Source: Acanthococcus lagerstroemiae
Taxonomy: Eukaryota > Arthropoda > Insecta > Hemiptera > Eriococcidae
Reading direction: 5' to 3'
Assembly: GCA_031841125.1 (NCBI GenBank)
Contig: CM063111.1
Span: 42,296,955 to 42,360,954 of the forward strand
DNA length: 64,000 bases
The notes under the pieces: generated by a model
What the model saw: the letters and a program-made list of their open reading frames with translations, nothing else
The model's database searches: none
What the model was told of the DNA's origin: nothing
Shown here: in pieces, positions 2,646 to 42,161 of the stretch
Numbering within the stretch: position 1 is the stretch's first letter
How the letters are laid out: every line of letters begins with the position of its first letter
Program-made: the position numbers and the translations under genes

Positions 2646-4190
2646 CCAGTAGAAATGATGTCTAGGTTCTAATCTAATTCTACTGGACTATTCACGTTCA
2701 CATTTTTTGTTATATCGAGTCCGAACTCGAGAACACGCCGTTCAGAAATGACATCCACGAAAGACTACACATCAAAAAAAAAAAAAAAAAACGAGCGATC
2801 ATCGGAAAATAATTAAAAAACTCTGTCCAGCGCAATTCAGGTGCTTAATGAAGGAAGAAAAAAGAATAAAATTGAAAAAAAATAGTTGGACACCGGTCGG
2901 TCAATGAAAATGAACTTTTGTTTTCTCGTACCCGCTGGCGCTGCCACTCGGCGTGCCAATTTCTGCAATCGTGCCAAATGAGATTTGGCATCCCGCGTTA
3001 TTCTACGATTAGATGTCGCGATAATTATAGAAAAAAAAACCTGTCTCTTTTTTCCTGTCCCATCTTCTATATAATTATATCATCTACGTTGTATTTGTCT
3101 CCTATGTATCTCTTTTTTATCTCTTGTCTCCTCTTTTTACAATATTTACCGAAAACAGAGTTGTTTACCGCGTTAACTTTGTTTGTCGGAACTGTTCACC
3201 CATTTTGTAACCGACTGGCCGTGTTTCCAAACTCGCCCTCGAATCGATGCACTAGGGCGGACAACCTGAGCTCGCTAGCGGCGGCATCGCTCGAAAAATC
3301 TCAAAGGTCGTATCGAAGGGCTAAAATGACCGCCTACATCTTCTAGAAACTACCATTGATGCCTCGACCACCTCGGCACTTATTGCAGTTCATCTTCACA
3401 TGAGTATAGTCACTGGAATGCTCCGATCCCAGAACAAGGCGGTACCAACACTGATCGAGAAGAGGGTAGTGAAAGCCCCGTGTAAGACTTCAATATGATA
3501 CAGGCCCATAGCAGACTCACCGGAAAAGAAAGATGTAGACAGTTTGCGAATTAAAGAAAGAAAAAACAAAAAACGAATACGTAATAACTTAGCTACAAAA
3601 AAGCAAGGGTCATGGGAGAGGAGATCGGTTGAAGACTGAAATCCAGAGAATAATTAGTTATTAGACAGTTTTAACATAAAATACTTGCGATCCACGATAT
3701 GAATTGATCGGCTCAGGACGTGATTCCCAAAAGGGGGAATTTCATGTTTTTAGAGCTCCTAGGCTCTCAAGAGTATCAACCGATCAACTTATATCGCAGA
3801 TTCAAGCTATTTTGTATTAAATCACTGCAATTGAAATCAATGAAAACAGAGAGCTTTAAAGCCATTAGGGACCAGTAAAAATGTTCTTCTTAAAACGGTA
3901 AAAATCCAATATATTTTCTCATATGAAAACGGGAAGAAGGTTGTGGCGCCATCGGTTTGTCAGGATTTTAAGTTTCAACCAAAATGAGCAAACATCCGCC
4001 CAAACCTTACTCAAAACCTAGAACAAAGGCACCCTACTAATTACAGTACTCGTCAAGGGAAGCTGATAGCAAATTTCAATTCAAACATTTTTTCAAAGGC
4101 AAGCAACTGGTGATACACTGAAAATGTAACAAAAAATAACGGAATTTCTGTCGGCTTATTCACAATATGAAGGGGTGAACTACAATTTTA
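2646..4190. other. Intergenic or intronic DNA, nothing recognised
   Basis: Apart from an A-rich run near 2776-2791, I see no gene, RNA or repeat boundary. The plus-strand open frame 2918-3346 starts in ordinary sequence and turns hydrophobic and low-complexity, and I do not support it as a gene. Confidence 0.35.
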
Positions 4191-11617: not shown

Positions 11618-13906
11618 ACATATACAGTTTAAAATTTATTAGACCATATAATACCGGTAAATGATGGGGGGGGTGAACAGATTGTGAGGTTTTTTATAGA
11701 ATACTTCTCCCATTTTTGAAGATAAACCCACCATCCAGTCTCGCTGTAAACATTTGACCTTCAGGAACAATACACTCGTATTTGTTGAAGAAAAAAAAAT
11801 CCACTGCCGAGTCTCAAAATTTGTTTGCCTTCACCTCACTATGTGGGGTGAAGATGAATTCACATGTTTTAGCGCGGTAATTTTTGCCGAAGGCGTCGTA
11901 AGAGGGTAAAGTTGTACAAATTTTAAAGTAAAAAAAAAAAAAAAAAAAAAAAATCGTGTGAAGATTTGTGAAAAATCAGGGAAAAAAACAATGCATTTAA
12001 TAGGTAATAATTATTATTCCAAATCATATCATTAAACACCAAGAAGTTGAAGGGTAGGAACGTGAATGCTGTAAAATCATTAAGAACACGAAATGATAAG
12101 TATTTATATGGAGTATTCATAACAAATCAGTCAAGTAGGTAAAATAACCCACTGTAGTGGAAATCTCGCAAGTTCATTCTCACCTCACGGTTTCCAACTT
12201 TCCACACTATCACTTCTATTTCAAGAAATGAATATTTTAGCAACCTATACTAACTTATATATGAAACTAGATAAAATTCTCTGCAAAATACATACATTTT
12301 GAAAACAGTCTCCGCCAGATTATCATGGAATACTGAAGAACTTTATTGTAGACTTCAAAAATTATTCGTACAAGACTTCTATTTTTTATTTTTTTTTAAA
12401 CTGACGGAAATCACATTATGTCAGTTTTGACTGATAACACTTGTTGGTTGTCGCGAATGTTTACCTAAACAAAAATAAAAACAATAAATATGGCAGAGCA
12501 CTATTACGTCACATCAGTGTGTATGGGCATTGCGGGTGGCGCTACAATCCTGCATTTTTTCAAACATTAAACAATAAGGATCAGATCCTTAATAACTTCA
12601 GGGTATTATTCTCCTTGAGCTCGACTTCTTCCATATATTCAGGCACAACTGTCCATGGCAGGTACTACACCATATCAATGATTATTTTAAGCTTGTCGCT
12701 GGGCAACATTCAATATTAGCTCATTTTTAATTATTAGCAACCTCATGCTAGAAGAGGACGAGACTGAAGTAGTGGATGATCCATCCCATCTTCCTTGAAT
12801 TCCACTGCATGGTTAAGTGCATGTTGCCAACAATGAATTCAAAGACCGTAAAACCTATAAATTGCATTTTTTTTTTCAATTTTGAGCCTTCGACCCATCA
12901 CAAGTACCACAATTTTGACGTCACAGCTAAATCTAGATACCGAAATCAAATTCTGTGATTTTGAAACTTCCTCAGCCCACAGGTCTCACGATTCAACGAT
13001 TCATATTAAAATTGGAAATTTCAAAGGTCATAGCAAATATTATGTCATCATTACTACGTAATATAGGAAAAACACAAATTTCAGAGTGATATCTACGGAT
13101 ATGGGATGGAGGGTTAGGGATTGTCCAGGGTCGGTCTGCATCTTTACTGGGCTCAAGTCGGTGAGACCAAAAAAGTGACGAAAATTCTTCTTTTCCCCCT
13201 ATAAGACCTATGTTAATGTATAGGTAGCACAGTAAAAGTAACAGAAAATACACTTTCAAGCTCTGAAAGAACTTTTTGGCGAAAAGAGCAACCTTCCTTC
13301 ACGTGTCACAGTAAATCAATTTTTTGTACCAGGTGTCATTACAAAGTTGGGTCTCTTCAATATTAAATGTTCATTATACCGAATCTGGCAGTTTGGTTTT
13401 CTCTACTTGATCAAAAATTGAATAATTCATTCTAAGCTTGCACGCCTCAACTAACGTACCTAGCAGTACGTTATTCCATTTACAAATGACAACGCAGGCG
13501 GCATGTTAATGTATCTTCTGCTACTGAGAGGCAGCTCAAAACACATCACCCATACTGAAAGAAAATTCATTTCTATGAATGCGTACGCCTTCAAGGTGGC
13601 TTGGTGTATCATTGTTGCATAAAATTAATGATAGATTTCCCTCTCATTCCATAGCCAGACGCCGAGTTTTCGAACTTTCAATACATCAGCGCATCTGAAT
13701 TACGGCTGCTCCAAGGTTGAAGACGGGTTTCTAAAGTCCTTATTTCAACTTTCGATGAGGAGGACCACACTCAGCTGACTTTATCTTCCCCCACCACACT
13801 AACAGATATACCTGATGTGCAGTCATAAATTCTACTCTTTCATCACATACTAATGAATAAGGCATCATTACTCAACATCAGATATATTTTTCGCTGTCCA
13901 CAACAA
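11618..13906. other. Intergenic DNA downstream of RpL4, nothing recognised
   Basis: An A-run at about 11,930-11,952 is visible. The short open frames (12,441-12,719 and 12,993-13,259) show no family resemblance. The RpL4 3-prime untranslated region should lie just below 13,907. An AATATA-type polyadenylation signal is possible on the minus strand near 13,885, and I see no perfect AATAAA close by. Confidence 0.3.
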
Positions 13907-16900
13907 TCACTTCTTTACAGGTTTCTTTTCTGGTGCCTTCTGTTTCTCGACTTTCTTCGCGGCAGGATCCACTTTCTTTGCGGCAGGATCCACTTTCTTT
14001 GCTGCAGGATCTAATTTCTTCGCTGCAGATTTCAACTCTTTCTTCTTAAGCAGCAACTTCAGAATCTTCTCATGTTTCTTCGTCAACGGAGACTGTAACA
14101 GATAAAAACATGTAATACACAACAGGAGAAGCAAGTAATCAGGAATGTCGAATACCAGAAATACATACGCCTGCTTTCTTTAAAGCAATAGCCTCCTTGG
14201 CGAGGGCTCGTGCCTGAGCCGCTCTGCTAGCTCGGCGTTTAAGAACAGCGGCATACGGATTCAAGGTGATCATCGTGCGGATGTGGCGTAACGGGTTCAG
14301 TTTCCTTGTTCGTCGGGGTACAGATCGTCTAAAACGAGAACATCAACATTAAAGGGCGTACGCGTTCATTCAAATAACACGATATTGTATTCACGTTTAA
14401 AATGGCTCAAATTCACAATCGAAGATTTAGGAACTACTGCATTCCCCTTCAATTTTTCGGCACCGAAGTTTAACAAAATTTACCTGCGATGACGGAGAAC
14501 ACTCTTAATTTCATCCGCCTTAAACAAACGCGTCAAATCGGTGTTAGTCATCATGGGGTAAGGTAGGTTGTAGTTATTCTTTAAGCTAGCCTTCTTCTGC
14601 CAGGTTCCATATAACTGATCCAATTGCTTGAACGCAGCTTCGGTCCAAATTACAAATCGACCCAAGTGACCGCCGGGAGCGAGCTTCAGAAGGTTCAACT
14701 TGCGGATGTTGATCGTATCGACACCCGGAATGTTACGGAACGCCTTCTTCAAACCCTAAAAACAAGCAACAGTGAGAATCGTCGGCATCCAGCTCCATAG
14801 AACGTGCTAAAAAAATTAAGTACTCCAATGTCCGAATTAATCGCCACTCTGCTCTCGGCAATTTTGACCAAGGAGAGAACGCTGTATAAATTCAAGTTAC
14901 TATAGCACCTAATGGAACGTTACAGCTCACCGAGAATCAGTAACGTGGAATAAGTGCAACCAAATCATTAAAATTCAATGGATCTCAATTGATAAATCAA
15001 GTAACGATACATGGCAGGTAAGAATAACGCTAATCAGAATTCAACTCTCATTCACGATCGTCAGTAACACAGACCAAGATAGAAGTTTGATTCATCATGC
15101 TAGCAAATGTTACAAGTTCGAGAATTAATTAACTGTATCAGAAGATCAAAATCGTCACAATTATCGGTAACACAGACCAAGAACATTAAATTCATCATGC
15201 TTCAGAACTGTCACTTTGCTTCTTTCTCTGTAGAACTAGCTGTGAGTTTCAATTGCACCTCAACCTCACTTATGACATAGTGAGAGAGAACGCCTGAAGA
15301 AACTGGTTTACTGTAGCACACGTATGGTACACAATTACCGCATATAACGATAACCATGTGGACATTATTATGTGCATGGTACACAATTACCGCGTACATC
15401 GATAACCATGTGGACATTATCATGAGCAAGTTGGCCACTATTTGAAGAAGGCCTGGAATCCTAGAACGCACAGACAACAGAAGTAATTTCCAAAATTCAC
15501 AGGTATGAATCAACATACTTAATGTATGGCAACAAATAATCTTCAACTACATTGCATTACGGACAGGAAAAAAGGCATCTATCATGCTCTCATACATCAG
15601 TAACACAGACCAAGTAAATCATTACATCATTATTCAGAATGGGCCAACCTCTCGATGATCTCGAAAACACGTTTTAGTGTAGAACCACTGTGAGTTTCAA
15701 TTGCACCTCAACCTCACTTATGTTATAGTGAGAGAGAACGCCTGAAGAAACTGGTTTTCTGTGGCACACGTATGGTACACAATTACCGCATAGAACGATA
15801 ACCATGTGGACATTATTATGTGCAAGCTGGCCACTATTCGATGAGGACCTTGAATTCTCGAATGCATAGACAAGTAATTTCCAAAATTCACAGGTACGAA
15901 TTCGGACTCGTCAAGAGCAAACTACGGAACGCTGTTACACGCACTACTACTAACACACACACAGCCTGCAGTTCTTATTAATCTTCGTACAAACTATGTT
16001 CAGATCCATTTTACCTACATAGAATTATTGATAAGAGAGAGTTGCGATACTAGCGCGCCACCGATCTGACAAGTCTGAATCAATATATGACAACAAATAA
16101 TCTTCAACTACATTGCATTACGAACAGGAAAACAGGAATCTGTCATGCTCTCATACATCAGTAACACAGACCAAGTAAATCATTACATCATTATTCAGAA
16201 AGGGTCAATCTCTCGATGATTTCGAAAACAAGTTTTAGAGTACAACCACTGTGAGTTTCAATTGCACCTCAACCTCACTTATATTACAGCGAGAGAGAAC
16301 GCCTGAAGAAACTATTCCTGTAGCACACGTCTGATATACGATTACCGCAGAAAACGAGAACTGTGTGGACATTATTATGTGCTTGCTGGTAACTCTTTGA
16401 AACTCGAAACAGAGAAACCAACAGATCATCGAAAAATACAGACAGTGAAAGATACTCCACATTTGATCACTGACAAGAATAACAAAATGAACACTTCGGG
16501 ATAGACACTCTACGAACTTGCGTTACAATTGAATATCAGAAAAGATGAATCTGTCATATGTATCAGTAACACAGACCAAGTAAACCATTAGATCATCATC
16601 ATTCACGACTAAGTTTCTCTTTGATCCACTCTAAAACACTCATTTTAAAACGATTGTGAGTTTCAATTGCACCTCAACCTCACTTACATTACGGTGAGAG
16701 AGAACGCCTGAAGAAACTGTTCCTATAGCACACGTTCAGTACACGATAACCGTAGGAGACGGAAACTATGCGGACATTATTATGTGCATGCTAGCAAATG
16801 TTCATTAGAAAATTAAGACTTAAAGATTAACAGAAAATTGAGAGATATCCGTAGGTGATTAGAATATTCAACTCGTTGAACAGAATTTTCCTTCATCTCA

Positions 16901-19145
16901 CTTAGTCAATCCACATATATTCAACCCCAAATGGCTCCCACCACTCAAGCATCAGATATAACTACTAAAATCACGGTCAATTCATAACCCAATGCTCTGA
17001 AAAATATGAAATGTCATCATCTACACCTGTTCACTTGAACGACTACAAATTAAAAATATACCAATAGCTCACCGAGGTAAAATAGCTCATCAGAAAATAC
17101 ATCATAATCACAGTTAATTCATAACCCAATGCTCTGAAAAACGTGAAGATATCATCATCTAAATTTGTTCACGAACGATTACAAAAATCACGAATGTCAA
17201 CTGCTCGACGTAAAAGTAATCATCGAATAACACCATAATCAGTCAACTCATTCATAACCCAATGCTCTAAAAATGTGAAGATATTCAAATTGTTCTTAGA
17301 CAGCTAACCAAGTCAACACTAATGAATGATGCAGGTCATCGCCCCACGATGTGAAAACAGTTCATCAGAAAATACATTATAATCACGGTTAATTCATAAC
17401 CCAATGCTCTGAAAAACGTGAAGATATCATCATCTAAATCTGTTCACGAAAGATTACAAAAATCACGAATGTCAACTGCTCGACAAAAAGTGACCATCGA
17501 AAAACGCCATAATCAATCTACTCATTCATAACCCAATGCTCTAAAAATGTGAAGATATTCAAATTGTTCTTAGACAGCTGATCAACGAAACACTAATGAA
17601 TGATGTCATCACCCCACGATGTGAAAACAGTTCATCAGAAAATACATTATAATCACGGTTAATTCATAACCCAATGCTCTGAAAAACGTGAAGATATCAT
17701 CATCCGAACTTTTATCAAGATAACCGACAAGTTATATCAACCTGACAACACAATACATCTATATTCGTAAATACATTGAAACCGAAATTTTTTGTAGTTA
17801 CCTTATCTCTGCTGTAAACGATCAATGGTCCTTTACGCTGAACGTGACGACGGTTCCTCATTTTACCTTTTCCAGCTCGTAATCGTTTAGATTTGTACAC
17901 CTATAAATACATTGAAAAACGATTGTCACTCCAGAAGCTCATAAATCCTTAACATCATTCGTTCAGCTTTCAGTACCTTATTGATATCCTTCCACACGCG
18001 AATACGATGCAAAAATGAAACTGCTTGTTTGGTTCGCGTGTATTCCTGGATCTTGTCAGTAACAACCAATGGGAATTCCGGCACATCTTGCACCAAATGT
18101 CCTGTTGCGAAACATCAATAAATTTCACAACGTCATCGTGATAGTTCAACTCTTCTTCAAGAACCAAATTTTTTACCTTTGGCCATAACCAGAGCCGGAA
18201 CCCCAGTAGCGGCGATAGCGCTGACAGTAGCGTAACGTTTCTGTGTCGTGTTCACCTTACGGTGCCAGCGTCTCCAAACTCGAGTGGGTGCGAACATCCT
18301 ACCGCCTCTACACATATTTCCAAACGCACCCTGACCGCTACGATGGGTACCGCCACCACGAACACGAGGAATACGCGCTACAGCACGACCCGTTCCCCAT
18401 GATTCAGCACTCGTTTGATGACCTAACAGGGAAGTTAAACATCAAGCATTTGCACATAATACATTTGATCAAGACGAATTTCGGTAGTATTCAACGTTCA
18501 AAATGCAATGATCCAATGATAGATACAAAATTTTGTAAAACAGCTTCACGAACAAAGACGAGAACACATTGTACTCAACGTTCATCGGTTACACCCTCAC
18601 CGATACACTGAATTAAAAAATTAGATTATAAGCTTTACGAAAGTGCATTTCTTCATCACACGAGTAAAAAAAGGGGCTTAGGACACTACTTAAGATCACA
18701 CTTCAACTACCTATGAACTAAGAAAGTAGGACTCCTACGTGTACAGACACAAGCAGGATCATACAAATAATATCTCACCAGCATCCTTGCTCACGGCGTA
18801 AGGCTGACGATGATTTTTAGCGATATTCTGATGCACGAAATTAACGACATCCGGTCTGATTGGGGCTTTAAATACAGCAGGCAAAGTTAACTGAGTACCT
18901 GTGTCTTCATCCTTGTCACCGTACACGGTTACGAGTGGTCTAGCGATAGCCGCCACAGCCTGCGAAGTCATAATTGAAAGTAATAATCGAAATCAACTTC
19001 ATCAGTAAAATTAGTGCATAGACATACCAGAAACTCAAATATTTACAGTAATGAATCGATCTAACTGGCACACGTGCATTACCAGCTCGGTCAACTAGAT
19101 TAACCAAATCAACAAATTAGAAAGCAAATAAGAGCTTCTTACCAT
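13907..19145 (-). CDS. RpL4: Ribosomal protein L4 (RpL4, uL4), eight exons
   Basis: This is a structural protein of the large ribosomal subunit. The minus-strand coding exons are 19145-19143 (ATG only), 18959-18779, 18422-18177, 18101-17977, 17900-17802, 14755-14484, 14328-14169 and 14092-13907. All junctions are GT-AG and in phase, giving about 423 residues, the usual animal length. Signature stretches are [95 protein letters not shown] and [18 protein letters not shown]. The C-terminus is the typical lysine/alanine tail, here with a short DPAAKKV tandem repeat. The start is inferred: an open-frame reading would begin at 18,971 (MTSQAVAAI), but TTCGCAG at 18,960 is a good acceptor. Upstream, ATG|GTAAGA at 19,143 supplies a start codon in phase, so the N-terminus is more likely [10 protein letters not shown]. 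Intron 5 is 3,046 bases and carries the snoRNA nest; the others are 75-356 bases. Confidence 0.97.
14826..14960 (-). ncRNA. H/ACA snoRNA-like gene, divergent unit 0 (RpL4 intron 5)
   Basis: The 5-prime hairpin is closed by GCACTT pairing with AGGTGC, with an inner CACGTTAC/GTAACGT stem. The H box ATAGTA is at 14,898-14,903. The 3-prime hairpin is closed by GAATT/AATTC with inner CTCTC/GAGAG. The ACA box is at 14,829-14,831, three bases from the predicted end. The left strand of the 3-prime pocket (GCGTTCTCTC) matches units 1-4, so this is probably a diverged paralogue. The target is unknown. Confidence 0.7.
15029..15104 (-). ncRNA. C/D snoRNA, U18 (SNORD18) family, copy a
   Basis: The box C ATGATGA (15,092-15,098) and box D CTGA (15,034-15,037) are perfect. 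The terminal stem is GCTA (15,101-15,104) with TAGC (15,029-15,032). Box D-prime CTGA (15,061-15,064) is directly preceded by the guide TTGGTCTGTGTTA. The guide matches the conserved 28S segment AACACGGACCAA with one G-U pair, in the same register as human SNORD18, as I recall it. Human RPL4 also hosts SNORD18 copies, which supports orthology. Confidence 0.9.
15133..15205 (-). ncRNA. C/D snoRNA, U18 family, copy b
   Basis: Box C ATGATGA is at 15,192-15,198 and box D CTGA at 15,138-15,141. The guide CTTGGTCTGTGTTA is identical to copy a. Box D-prime is CCGA (15,164-15,167), one change from CTGA. The terminal stem is weak (CTG/CAG). Confidence 0.8.
15238..15377 (-). ncRNA. H/ACA snoRNA, tandem family unit 1
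   Basis: The 5-prime hairpin is closed by GCACA/TGTGC with an inner GGTTATCG/CGGTAATT stem. The H box is ACAGTA (15,309-15,314). The 3-prime hairpin has a GTTTC/GAAAC base and a CTCACT/AGTGAG tip. The ACA box at 15,241-15,243 is followed by three bases. Just upstream, 15,378-15,428 repeats the 5-prime hairpin half, so this unit carries a partial internal duplication. Confidence 0.85.
15574..15636 (-). ncRNA. C/D snoRNA, U18 family, copy c
   Basis: The guide CTTGGTCTGTGTTA and D-prime CTGA (15,597-15,600) are intact. Box C is ATGATGT (15,624-15,630). No canonical box D is present; TAGA at 15,578-15,581 sits in its place. The unit may be functional only if the D box tolerates this change, or it may be decaying. 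Confidence 0.6.
15686..15825 (-). ncRNA. H/ACA snoRNA, tandem family unit 2
   Basis: It is nearly identical to unit 1, with an ACAGAA H box (15,757-15,762) and ACA at 15,689-15,691. Sequence changes among the units keep the closing stems and both boxes, as expected for selected RNAs. Confidence 0.85.
16136..16197 (-). ncRNA. C/D snoRNA, U18 family, copy d
   Basis: The guide and D-prime are as in copy c, and box C is ATGATGT (16,185-16,191). The D-box position reads CAGA (16,139-16,142). A short GAAT/ATTC terminal stem is possible. Its flanks are near-identical to copy c, showing recent tandem duplication. Confidence 0.62.
16247..16384 (-). ncRNA. H/ACA snoRNA, tandem family unit 3
   Basis: The H box is ACAGGA (16,316-16,321) and ACA is at 16,250-16,252. 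The 3-prime hairpin is conserved; the 5-prime hairpin has several substitutions relative to units 1 and 2. Confidence 0.83.
16530..16605 (-). ncRNA. C/D snoRNA, U18 family, copy e
   Basis: Box C ATGATGA lies within 16,593-16,602, in a run that offers two registers. Box D CTGA is at 16,536-16,539. The guide CTTGGTCTGTGTTA is followed by D-prime CTGA. The terminal stem TGAAT/ATTCA joins 16,601-16,605 with 16,530-16,534. All elements are intact. Confidence 0.85.
16652..16789 (-). ncRNA. H/ACA snoRNA, tandem family unit 4
   Basis: The H box is ATAGGA (16,721-16,726) and ACA is at 16,655-16,657. The outer GCACA/TGTGC stem and the whole 3-prime hairpin are conserved, and the 5-prime hairpin has diverged most. 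Confidence 0.83.
16946..17039 (-). ncRNA. C/D snoRNA-like, second family, copy 1
   Basis: Box C ATGATGA is at 17,014-17,020 and box D CTGA at 16,952-16,955. The family core CAGAGCATTGGGTTATGAAT lies between them. TTCAAG and CTTGAG can pair outside the boxes, but at uneven distances. I cannot assign a target. Confidence 0.65.
17085..17166 (-). ncRNA. C/D snoRNA-like, second family, copy 2
   Basis: Box C ATGATGA is at 17,152-17,158 and box D CTGA at 17,090-17,093, with the core CAGAGCATTGGGTTATGAAT. The interior is almost identical to copies 3 and 4. Confidence 0.7.
17215..17305 (-). pseudogene. Degenerate second-family C/D unit
   Basis: It keeps AGAGCATTGGGTTATGAAT and the preceding TCTTCACATTTTT. 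The box C position reads TTTGAATA and there is no CTGA at the box D position. It alternates with intact copies and is near-identical to the unit at 17,487-17,575. Confidence 0.55.
17351..17447 (-). ncRNA. C/D snoRNA-like, second family, copy 3
   Basis: Box C ATGATGA is at 17,427-17,433 and box D CTGA at 17,365-17,368. An extended terminal stem can form between GTGAACAG and CTGTTTTCAC. It is one of the two best-formed copies. Confidence 0.75.
17487..17575 (-). pseudogene. Degenerate second-family C/D unit
   Basis: It is the same as the unit at 17,215-17,305: the core is kept and boxes C and D are lost. Its similarity to that unit shows that a dimer (intact plus degenerate, about 270 bases) was duplicated. 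Confidence 0.55.
17629..17710 (-). ncRNA. C/D snoRNA-like, second family, copy 4
   Basis: Box C ATGATGA is at 17,697-17,703 and box D CTGA at 17,635-17,638. A compact terminal stem joins AGTTC to GAACT. It begins about 90 bases inside the intron from exon 5. Confidence 0.75.
18572..18666 (-). ncRNA. Possible C/D snoRNA in RpL4 intron 2
   Basis: A perfect box C GTGATGA is at 18,653-18,659, and a CCGA that could serve as box D is at 18,585-18,588. TACTC/GAGTA could form a terminal stem, but unevenly spaced. It has no similarity to the intron-5 families. The evidence is weak. Confidence 0.25.
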
Positions 19146-39735: not shown

Positions 39736-40090
39736 TAGGAGGAGAAGTGACGTGAAACGAGTAGCCGCATGGTATCACATGACATCATTTATCCTGGTCC
39801 TAGGCGTTCGGAGGGGAACACGGGGGATTGCCACGAGCTGACAGTTTGCCTCCCTCTCTAGTAGCTGTTTTCCTTGACATGAAGCGATTTTTGCTTTTTC
39901 ACTGAAATTTTGAAGTCAGTCTTGCTGTTGTATCCCAAGTACCTCTTTTTCTAATGTTTCTGTAGGCTCAAGTTACTTTTCTTGAAAAATTGGTCACGTT
40001 ACGGGGCTACTCATGTGTGCCGGCTGAGGAAAGCTAACGGCTGGGCCATTAAGTCGAGAATTTTAATTTTCACTCATGCATTCGATTGAA
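39735..40090 (+). repeat. Large inverted repeat, arm 1 (interrupted by LINE)
   Basis: It matches the reverse complement of 46,935-47,260 over landmarks GAAGTGACGTGAAACGAGTA, GCCTCCCTCTCTAG, GTCACGTTACGG, GCTGAGGAAAGCT and AAGTCGAGAATTTT. The match resumes at 42,162 (AGAGTGTAAATTACG... CTTTCAGGGTTCTAACCCCT) beyond the LINE. Confidence 0.75.
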
Positions 40091-42161
40091 GGATCAGAAG
40101 CAAGGATAGGTTAGACCAGTGGGACCAGTTAGAACTATGTGAATTAAGGAAACTTGATTAGGAAGGGGATAAGGAGAGATGTACGAACGTACGATCAGGA
40201 GGCAATAAGGGAAATAATCGAGAAGACTGACTCTATCAGGAAAGTATGTAAGGCACTTGCTCACGGGCAAGACCTATTCCCAGCCATAAAAACGAAGAAA
40301 TCTAAAGAAAAACTTTTTGAAAGGGAGGATAATATAGTAAGAAAGGCAACGGAATTTCATTAGGAGCTTTATACGGAAAAAGAGAAGGTAAAGAGGACTA
40401 TGCTAGGAAGGATAAGGATGAGAAATTGACAGAAGAAATAACAGAAGAGAGGGAAGAAAACAAGGAAGAAATTACGCCTGAAATTACAAACGAAGAAATT
40501 TGGAGGATATTACGATGTGAAAGAAGGTAAGGCGACTGGACCAGACGGGGTAGAGAACGAACTAATAAAAATTTTAACGGATGCACTCACACTTTACATA
40601 AAATTTGTGCAAACAGGATTCACACCCAAACAGTGGCATCAATCAGAAATAATTTTGCTGTATAAAAAAGCAGACAGGAGTGACCTGAATAAATTATAGA
40701 CCTGTTAGCCTATCCTCAAGTATAAGTAAATTTTTTGGAAAATTACTAGAAACCAGATTATTATACCAAAATTTAGATTGGAACGAGCCAGTGGAACAAG
40801 TCGGGTATAGAGCAGGTTACTCAACCGTCAATCAAATTGTGGAAAAAACAAAGGAGTGTAATATGCCGCTATATCTCTTATTTATTGAATTCAATAAAGC
40901 ATTCGCCTCGGTGGAACACTGGGCAGTATGAGATAGTGAGAGTACTGAGGGAAATGTATGACAAAACAATAGCATTGGTAAGGTTGTACAGGGTGGGAGA
41001 GGAATTTGAAATACAGAAAGGAGTGAAGCAGGGGGCCCTTTGTCTCCCAACCCTTTCATTGCTATACTGGAGGGGATATTTCGGAGATTAAACTGGGAGA
41101 AAAAAGGGAAGGATAAATGGTCGATTGCTGAATAACCTACGATACGCAGATGATATTGTGTCGCTAAGTAATGAATAGAGGAGTTACAAGAGATGGCAGA
41201 AGAACTCAATACCGAAAGTAGAATGGTGGGACTATCAATGAACTTGACAAAAACCAAGCTGATGTCAGATACTCAGGAGGGAAAATTGAAGGTGGGTACA
41301 GAAATCGAAAGAGTGGAGGAATATAATTATTCAAGGCAAATGGTAGCTTTTGAAAATAGAGGGAAACTGGAGCTGAAAGCGAAAACCGCGAAAGATTGGA
41401 AAAGTTTCTGGGCCCACAAAGCGATGCTAAAAGGTAACTTACCACTAAGGGAAAAAATAAAAATACCGGACCAATGTGTGATGGAGCACAAACATGGTCT
41501 TTGACTAGAACACAATACGAGAGCTTGAGAGGAACACACTTTAGGATGCTCCGTAGTACTATGGGAATGGAGTCTGGTTGGCCGAGTGGATAGCGCGTTT
41601 GTCTCGGAATCCGGAGGTTCCGGGTTTGAGCTCACATAGCAACTCGCAAGATTTCAACCTAGGCCGACCTGAAAGGAAGAGGGATAAGACTAGCAGCCTC
41701 CCCGACGTCTCTGAAATATGCTCGAAAAGGCGGATTTCAGGGCTTGGGTTGAGAGCAAATTAGAAAAGAAGTAGTACTGTGAGAATACGCATCAAAGATA
41801 GAATAAGTCTGAAAAAAATACTTGAAAGGACGGGCTCGAATGATATTGGAGAGAAAATAAAAAAGGCAAAATTAGGATTCGTAGGGCACATGATGAGGGG
41901 CATAGACAAATGGGAAAATGTGACAGAAGAACGGTCACCTACAGAATGGAAAAGCAAAAAAAGGTTAAACCACCTACAAGGTGGACAAGATTACGAAGGA
42001 ATTTGGGATACTGTGGGGAAGAGTGGGAAAGGACAAGTAATGGTGGGAAAAGGCGATGGGTGCTAGTGCCCAGAAAAGGATGCATTCGACGTCACAACAG
42101 CCCCCCCACACACTCCGGGGCCTAATGTTACGACGAATGAACGACTGTAAAATAAAATAAA
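40091..42161 (+). mobile_element. RTE-like LINE insertion with target duplication
   Basis: The insert is flanked by ATTCGATTGAA (40,080-40,090 and 42,162-42,172) and ends in a short A/T-rich tail (AAAATAAAATAAA). Plus-strand frames, with many stops and shifts, show KEGKATGPDGVENELIK, WHQSEIILLYKKADRSDLNK, a palm motif FNKAFASVEH, GVKQGA, NLRYADDIV, MNLTKTKLMS and KLGFVGHMMRGIDKWE. These are the order and spacing of RTE-clade reverse transcriptase plus C-terminal region; the endonuclease is missing, so the copy is 5-prime truncated. A SINE is nested at 41,572. The pre-insertion site is confirmed by the uninterrupted copy near 46,950. Confidence 0.9.
41572..41770 (+). mobile_element. tRNA-derived SINE, copy 3 nested in LINE
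   Basis: The head is GTCTGGTTGGCCGAGTGGAT, with B-box-like GGTTCCGGGTTTGAG and a complete body to GAGAGCAAATTAGAAAAG. It is flanked by GTAGTACTRTGRGAAT duplicates (41,553-41,568 and 41,771-41,786). It disrupts the LINE frame after the HGL segment. Confidence 0.9.

Follow-up and report, generated by a model that had tools for sequence, protein, structure and literature searches.

Two classes of snoRNA-like genes in tandem within a single RpL4 intron of Acanthococcus lagerstroemiae

The window, a 64,000-nucleotide stretch of contig CM063111.1 from Acanthococcus lagerstroemiae (Hemiptera, Eriococcidae), carries on its minus strand a gene for ribosomal protein L4 (RpL4), whose spliced product matches that protein over 365 residues. 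The first eight named relatives among the matches listed share 74-78% identity with this product and are bugs of the order Hemiptera, as confirmed for Laodelphax; two transcript-derived proteins are 94% identical to it. Exon assembly and sequence place an intron of 3,046 nt at 17801..14756 (minus strand), between exons at 17900-17802 and 14755-14484. Its ends are GT...AG, with a GTAACT donor at 17801 and a TTTTTAG acceptor whose last base is 14756, exactly where a sequence-only reading of this DNA had put a 3-kb RpL4 intron. The last RpL4 exon contains a 21-bp tandem repeat of 3.8 copies (13950-14028) that encodes a Lys/Ala-rich tail. Elsewhere in the window, positions 40000-42150 (plus strand) resemble by eye a decayed non-LTR retrotransposon, and tRNA-like (SINE-type) words lie near 41569 and 42366.

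On the RpL4 sense strand, the intron holds five H/ACA units (H1-H5), five U18-type C/D units (U18_1 to U18_5) and six units of another C/D family, here family B. All coordinates that follow are on the minus strand and in sense order. B1 (17635..17703) extends from an ATGATGA C box to a CTGA D box and is followed by B2 (17495..17575, approximate ends), a decayed copy that has no C box and keeps the antisense core. B3 (17365..17433) and B5 (17090..17158), both with intact boxes and identified by box scan and 28S duplex, flank B4 (17220..17300, approximate ends), a second decayed copy with its antisense core kept, placed by alignment and 28S duplex. B6 (16952..17020) has intact boxes and a diverged 5' half of the antisense element. 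H1 (16653..16787), placed by alignment, has a decayed 5' hairpin with both left guide arms kept, and is followed by U18_1 (16536..16602). H2 (16248..16382), likewise placed by alignment and with a partly decayed 5' hairpin, precedes U18_2 (16135..16204, approximate ends). H3 (15687..15823), by its fold a full hairpin-hinge-hairpin-tail unit, precedes U18_3 (15574..15643, approximate ends). Next comes a half unit beyond those counted (15376..15427), which duplicates the H4 5' hairpin in tandem over 52 nt and was recognized by repeat and alignment; it abuts H4 (15239..15375), whose full structure likewise follows from its fold. U18_4 (15138..15198), U18_5 (15034..15098) and the diverged H/ACA unit H5 (14827..14957) complete the array.

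With unit ends as drawn, 1,604 of the 3,046 nt of the intron lie within units, and inter-unit spacers span 22-311 nt, with zero between the duplicated hairpin and H4. B1 lies ~91 nt from the 5' splice site, and the 3' splice site is ~70 nt beyond the end of H5. Local duplication is evident for both the H/ACA-U18 module and the B module. By eye, a 15-nt word, ACATTTGCTAGCATG, occurs upstream of both H1 and U18_5 (about 16805 and 15103, minus strand), as if past recombination had joined these two unit types.

The C/D units were evaluated with a strict box scan that demanded an exact RTGATGA, a CTGA at 50-95 nt and a stem of at least 4 bp. Six sense-strand matches were found in the intron (four in family B, plus U18_1 and U18_5) and none on the antisense strand; dinucleotide shuffles (n = 1000) gave a mean of 0.09 and a maximum of 3. 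The whole window outside the intron yielded one further match. A C/D-like motif at 13846 (minus strand), directly downstream of the RpL4 stop codon, was set aside as an extra snoRNA, one match being in line with the chance rate. C box, D box and terminal stem are all present in U18_1 and U18_5; U18_4 has the boxes and fails the terminal-stem criterion; U18_2 and U18_3 keep guide and D' with degenerate boxes and no canonical C/D pair. Exact C and D boxes occur in four of the six family B copies (B1, B3, B5 and B6), and folding of the B2 region revealed no structure above shuffles (z +1.18).

At gathering thresholds, Rfam returned no match in the 64 kb and recognized none of the units. A permissive search with SNORD18 (RF00093) matched all five U18 units on the correct strand at 34.0 (U18_5), 27.9, 27.9, 22.4 and 21.9 bits, the best of them below the gathering score of 41. 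Two B units also match this model, at 21.2 and 20.9 bits, and the two weakest U18 scores therefore say little. We describe these units as U18-type and do not assign them to Rfam SNORD18. Naming family B after an Rfam family was likewise rejected, as the permissive search gave weak, box-like matches to many C/D families, the best at 23.2 bits.

For the H/ACA units, a covariance model built from H1-H4 detected the held-out H5 with 32 bits and an E of about 1.8e-6 under a rough calibration; on both strands of the 64 kb and up to E = 10, no other non-training match was obtained. Each of the five units has a hinge with an ANANNA H box and an ACA tail, 3' ends being drawn from the sequence. The hairpin-hinge-hairpin-tail arrangement is given by folding for H3 and H4, which depart well from shuffles (z -2.53 and -2.46), and for H5, which does so moderately (z -1.75), and by alignment for H1 and H2, whose folding is no better than that of shuffles (z -0.58 and -0.64), such that RNAfold alone gives them no support. 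The distance from pocket to H or ACA box is 13-14 nt in the H3 fold, and neither hairpin has a gap in H1, H2 or H4. The H1-H4 stems vary little and contain no clean double compensatory change.

Overall, the sequence-only reading had counted at least 14 units: five H/ACA-like, five U18-type, and four intact plus two degenerate units of the other C/D family. Each count stands; the 14 are not equally intact, given the missing box pairs of U18_2 and U18_3, the stem of U18_4 and the folding of H1 and H2. In the covariance-model check that it had proposed, the H1-H4 model finds H5 and SNORD18 hits all five U18 units below threshold; no Rfam gathering score is reached.

The 5' hairpins of H3, H4 and H5 were also matched on the correct strand by Rfam mir-3804 (RF03909), at 15757-15830, 15316-15375 and 14895-14967 (minus strand), with 34.2, 33.1 and 28.4 bits, far below the cut-off of 90. 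We take mir-3804 to be a microRNA family of Tribolium origin. In the present intron the matching hairpin is half of an H/ACA RNA, and the annotated 'miRNA' may represent the 5' portion of an H/ACA snoRNA orthologous to these units.

Predicted targets were sought in the species' own rRNA, with rDNA located by pattern in this genome and 28S and 18S read from its stretches. The 28S copies examined (rDNA stretches L019-L031 and L040) are broken or incomplete, and the 3' part was found solely beside a retrotransposon-like insert. The 18S rRNA (L019:3032-5554) measures 2,523 nt, which is long among insects; long 18S rRNAs are typical of some Hemiptera.

All five U18 units have their best ungapped rRNA match at positions 760-772 of the species' own 28S (AACACGGACCAAG) or a slightly longer stretch. 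Counted by hand, D'+5 falls opposite the A of AACAC, which predicts a 2'-O-methylated adenosine at position 763 of the 28S copy in L019. From this count, set against the human sequence, the facing adenosine is probably the equivalent of human Am1313. The large-subunit site of U18 is methylated in human (Am1313) and yeast (Am647), according to PMC3511168. Duplex strength does not exceed chance, with 36 of 200 shuffles reaching the same duplex energy, and for each unit the top-scoring of 20 shuffles in the ungapped scan fell within about 5 points either way. The weight of the predicted target lies in the match falling at a known site.

The family B core, in contrast to shuffled sequence, forms a far stronger pairing: one bipartite duplex with 28S 3069-3103 at -39.9 kcal/mol in B1, an energy reached by none of 200 shuffles (mean -25.4, s.d. 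1.8, minimum -32.1). At the same site the B2 and B4 cores give -33.1 and the B6 core -29.3 kcal/mol. The bipartite antisense element comprises 15 + 10 + 3 bp, and its 28S partner spans 35 nt. When matched without gaps, B1, B2, B3, B5 and B6 all score highest at this site, while B4 scores higher at an 18S stretch. The 15-bp part covers the CAGA that would serve as D', and the duplex does not fix one methylation site. The paired stretch probably lies in or beside the sites guided in chicken by HBII-276 (G3233), U40/U46 (A3249) and U15 (A3274). Those three sites are taken from a table in PMC2653536.

Of 11 rDNA copies examined, five contain GTGAAGAAATTC, and in all five the 28S at the B site reads AACGTGAAG; this filter would miss copies variant in GTGAAGAAATTC itself. 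The Rfam LSU consensus is less conserved at two places that carry C and G in the species' own 28S, and B1, B3 and B5 pair with this C and G. This comparison of one species with the Rfam consensus suggests that the B units may have co-evolved with their own 28S variant.

Candidate H/ACA targets were evaluated with pockets fixed by the fold, in seven pocket definitions that were each set against 200 shuffles. The test was not blind, as a CGCCTGAA match in the 28S 3' end had been seen by eye beforehand. Under this caveat, the 3' pocket of H1-H4 fits 28S gttgga[UU]acgcctgaa with one right-arm mismatch, a fit equalled by none of 200 shuffles, and the 5' pocket of H3 and H4 fits ggt[UC]ggacatt with a right arm of only 3 bp, a fit reached by 4 of 200. 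The two predicted pseudouridine sites, GTTGGA[U]TACGCCTGAA and CAGGT[U]CGGACATT, lie close to the 28S 3' end at a distance of 61 nt from each other. No convincing target emerged for H5, with 6, 44 and 76 of 200 shuffles for its 3'-pocket definitions and 98 and 30 of 200 for its 5' definitions. An initial unrestricted scan, run on 28S lacking the 3' part and with no shuffle control, gave several near-equal matches from which no target was claimed.

Conservation within the array was compared across four H/ACA-U18 modules (R1-R4), which form six pairs. Identity over all six is 88-95% for the H/ACA 3' hairpin with its tail and 77-98% for the 5' hairpin, the upper value being that of R3/R4. U18 cores are 59-78% identical in five pairs, the H-U18 spacer 23-55% and the stretch after D' 34-49%, with R2/R3 the exception each time (98%, 86% and 93%, respectively); R2 and R3 would on this pattern be a recent pair. 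Upstream of the H units, the adjoining 60 nt, compared for R1-R3 only, are 40-55% identical. Three of the four pocket arms, namely both left arms and the right arm of the 3' pocket, do not differ among H1-H4, and the 5'-pocket right arm varies. All six family B copies share an identical 19-nt core. Gene conversion could be another cause of the likeness of the conserved blocks. Exact-word searches of 658 Mb in 438 contigs found the U18 guide five times and the B core six times, every occurrence being in the RpL4 intron, as are all four exact occurrences of an 18-nt H/ACA word; diverged copies may lie elsewhere. For this array, then, the units, their structures, their rRNA complementarity and the conservation of guides over spacers have been computed, and the exact genome search gave no second source for either C/D guide.

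The presence of snoRNA genes of two classes in the RpL4 intron is well supported by these computations. We consider it probable that the intron is a tandem-duplicated, mixed-class array of C/D and H/ACA guides for 28S rRNA that grew by duplication and whose inner units are cut free. RpL4 pre-mRNA would then deliver guide RNAs of the box C/D and box H/ACA classes, both binding 28S rRNA. The U18-type units would direct 2'-O-methylation of a conserved large-subunit adenosine (human A1313), H1-H4 may guide the conversion of two uridines close to the 28S 3' end to pseudouridine, and family B, pairing with its 35-nt stretch, could be a methylation guide there or an aid to rRNA folding. Repeated local duplication of the H/ACA-U18 and B modules would have enlarged the array, with some copies now decaying. 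When a debranched intron is trimmed, protection extends to the outermost snoRNPs only, so the inner units, if used, need cuts in the spacers; most likely they would be freed by endonucleolytic spacer cuts and then trimmed to the snoRNP ends. Transcription, snoRNP assembly, rRNA modification and the processing route are what we infer from the array. About ten units are plausibly active, namely H3, H4, H5, U18_1, U18_5, U18_4 (with its weak stem), B1, B3, B5 and B6, or twelve if H1 and H2 are included.

How many inner units are released and used is where other readings diverge. Exonucleases might stop at the outermost snoRNPs, B1 and H5, leaving a sno-lncRNA-type transcript of up to ~2.9 kb from which most inner units are never released. 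PMC11028025 reports that two snoRNAs in one intron can yield sno-lncRNAs, and B1 and H5 do lie close to the splice sites. Yet H3, H4, B3 and B5, all of them inner units, rank with the best preserved, and guide elements have changed less than spacers, which suggests that inner units are used. Recent duplication, as in the near-identical R3/R4 5' hairpins, may account for part of this preservation, and we regard such a transcript as unlikely on balance. A better candidate, which we nonetheless hold to be somewhat improbable, is that a few units (for example U18_5, H3/H4 and B1) function and the others are young duplicates becoming pseudogenes. Lost boxes in U18_2, U18_3, B2 and B4, decayed 5' hairpins in H1 and H2, and the recent pairs among U18 cores (R2/R3) and 5' hairpins (R3/R4) would all follow from it; the invariant pocket arms of H1-H4 and the 19-nt core shared by every B copy, decayed ones included, would not.

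It is very improbable that the conserved words form a satellite-like repeat devoid of function as RNA. Tandem duplication is plain to see, but structure, boxes and matches to own rRNA at several independent sites are not explained by it, and conservation is strongest in the guide parts. A simple satellite, a transposon and a miRNA cluster were all considered and rejected. Beyond the mixed-class array itself, a more far-reaching proposal can be put forward tentatively, and we hold it to be less likely than not: a polycistronic intron factory in an insect, in which about ten active snoRNAs of both classes act on 28S after endonucleolytic release, and family B is a new bipartite LSU-binding C/D RNA, as much rRNA chaperone as methylation guide, that tracks its own 28S variant.

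Several known systems resemble this arrangement in part. Drosophila reportedly has intronic H/ACA clusters, in which several snoRNA isoforms that arose by duplication occupy single introns of protein-coding genes; these are reportedly H/ACA only, whereas the RpL4 array combines H/ACA units with two C/D families in one intron. In Xenopus, release of intronic U18 is said to involve the C and D boxes, and XendoU is said to be an endoribonuclease for intronic snoRNAs (work on U16/U18 processing); the likeness is that of an intronic U18. Polycistronic snoRNA clusters of plants, reportedly described by Leader in 1997 and Brown in 2001, share with the array the presence of several different snoRNAs per precursor. 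Unlike an array in the intron of a protein gene, plant clusters mostly lie between genes and have a promoter of their own, according to PMC11028025. The same source describes 'intronic snoRNA clusters', and the RpL4 intron, with its predicted units, has the two or more snoRNAs per intron that define them. The sequence-only reading, which had held that animal intronic snoRNAs usually occur one per intron, was right that several per intron is unusual, but the arrangement has precedent in animals. Chicken RPL4 hosts U18a, U18b and U18c in introns 2, 5 and 6 (PMC2653536). Vertebrate U18/SNORD18 and the present units share guide type, predicted large-subunit target site and host gene; the vertebrate gene has one copy per intron, whereas here five lie in one intron, some with decayed boxes, and score below the Rfam cut-off.

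In the literature searched, drawn mostly from outside subscription journals, we found no published account of this RpL4 locus. The array is a strong variant of a known arrangement and not a new kind of system; what stands out is its density, the co-occurrence of both classes, the single predicted target molecule and a B family with no Rfam match. It presents RPL4 as a host of U18-type units in an insect, as in vertebrates, and family B as a set of C/D units whose 28S match is long and bipartite and for which no Rfam family scores above noise. As a local birth-and-decay series of snoRNA genes, it displays guide parts that change less than the spacers between them. Moreover, the array offers a natural setting in which to ask whether animal cells can free many snoRNAs from a single intron, a task beyond exonuclease trimming by itself.
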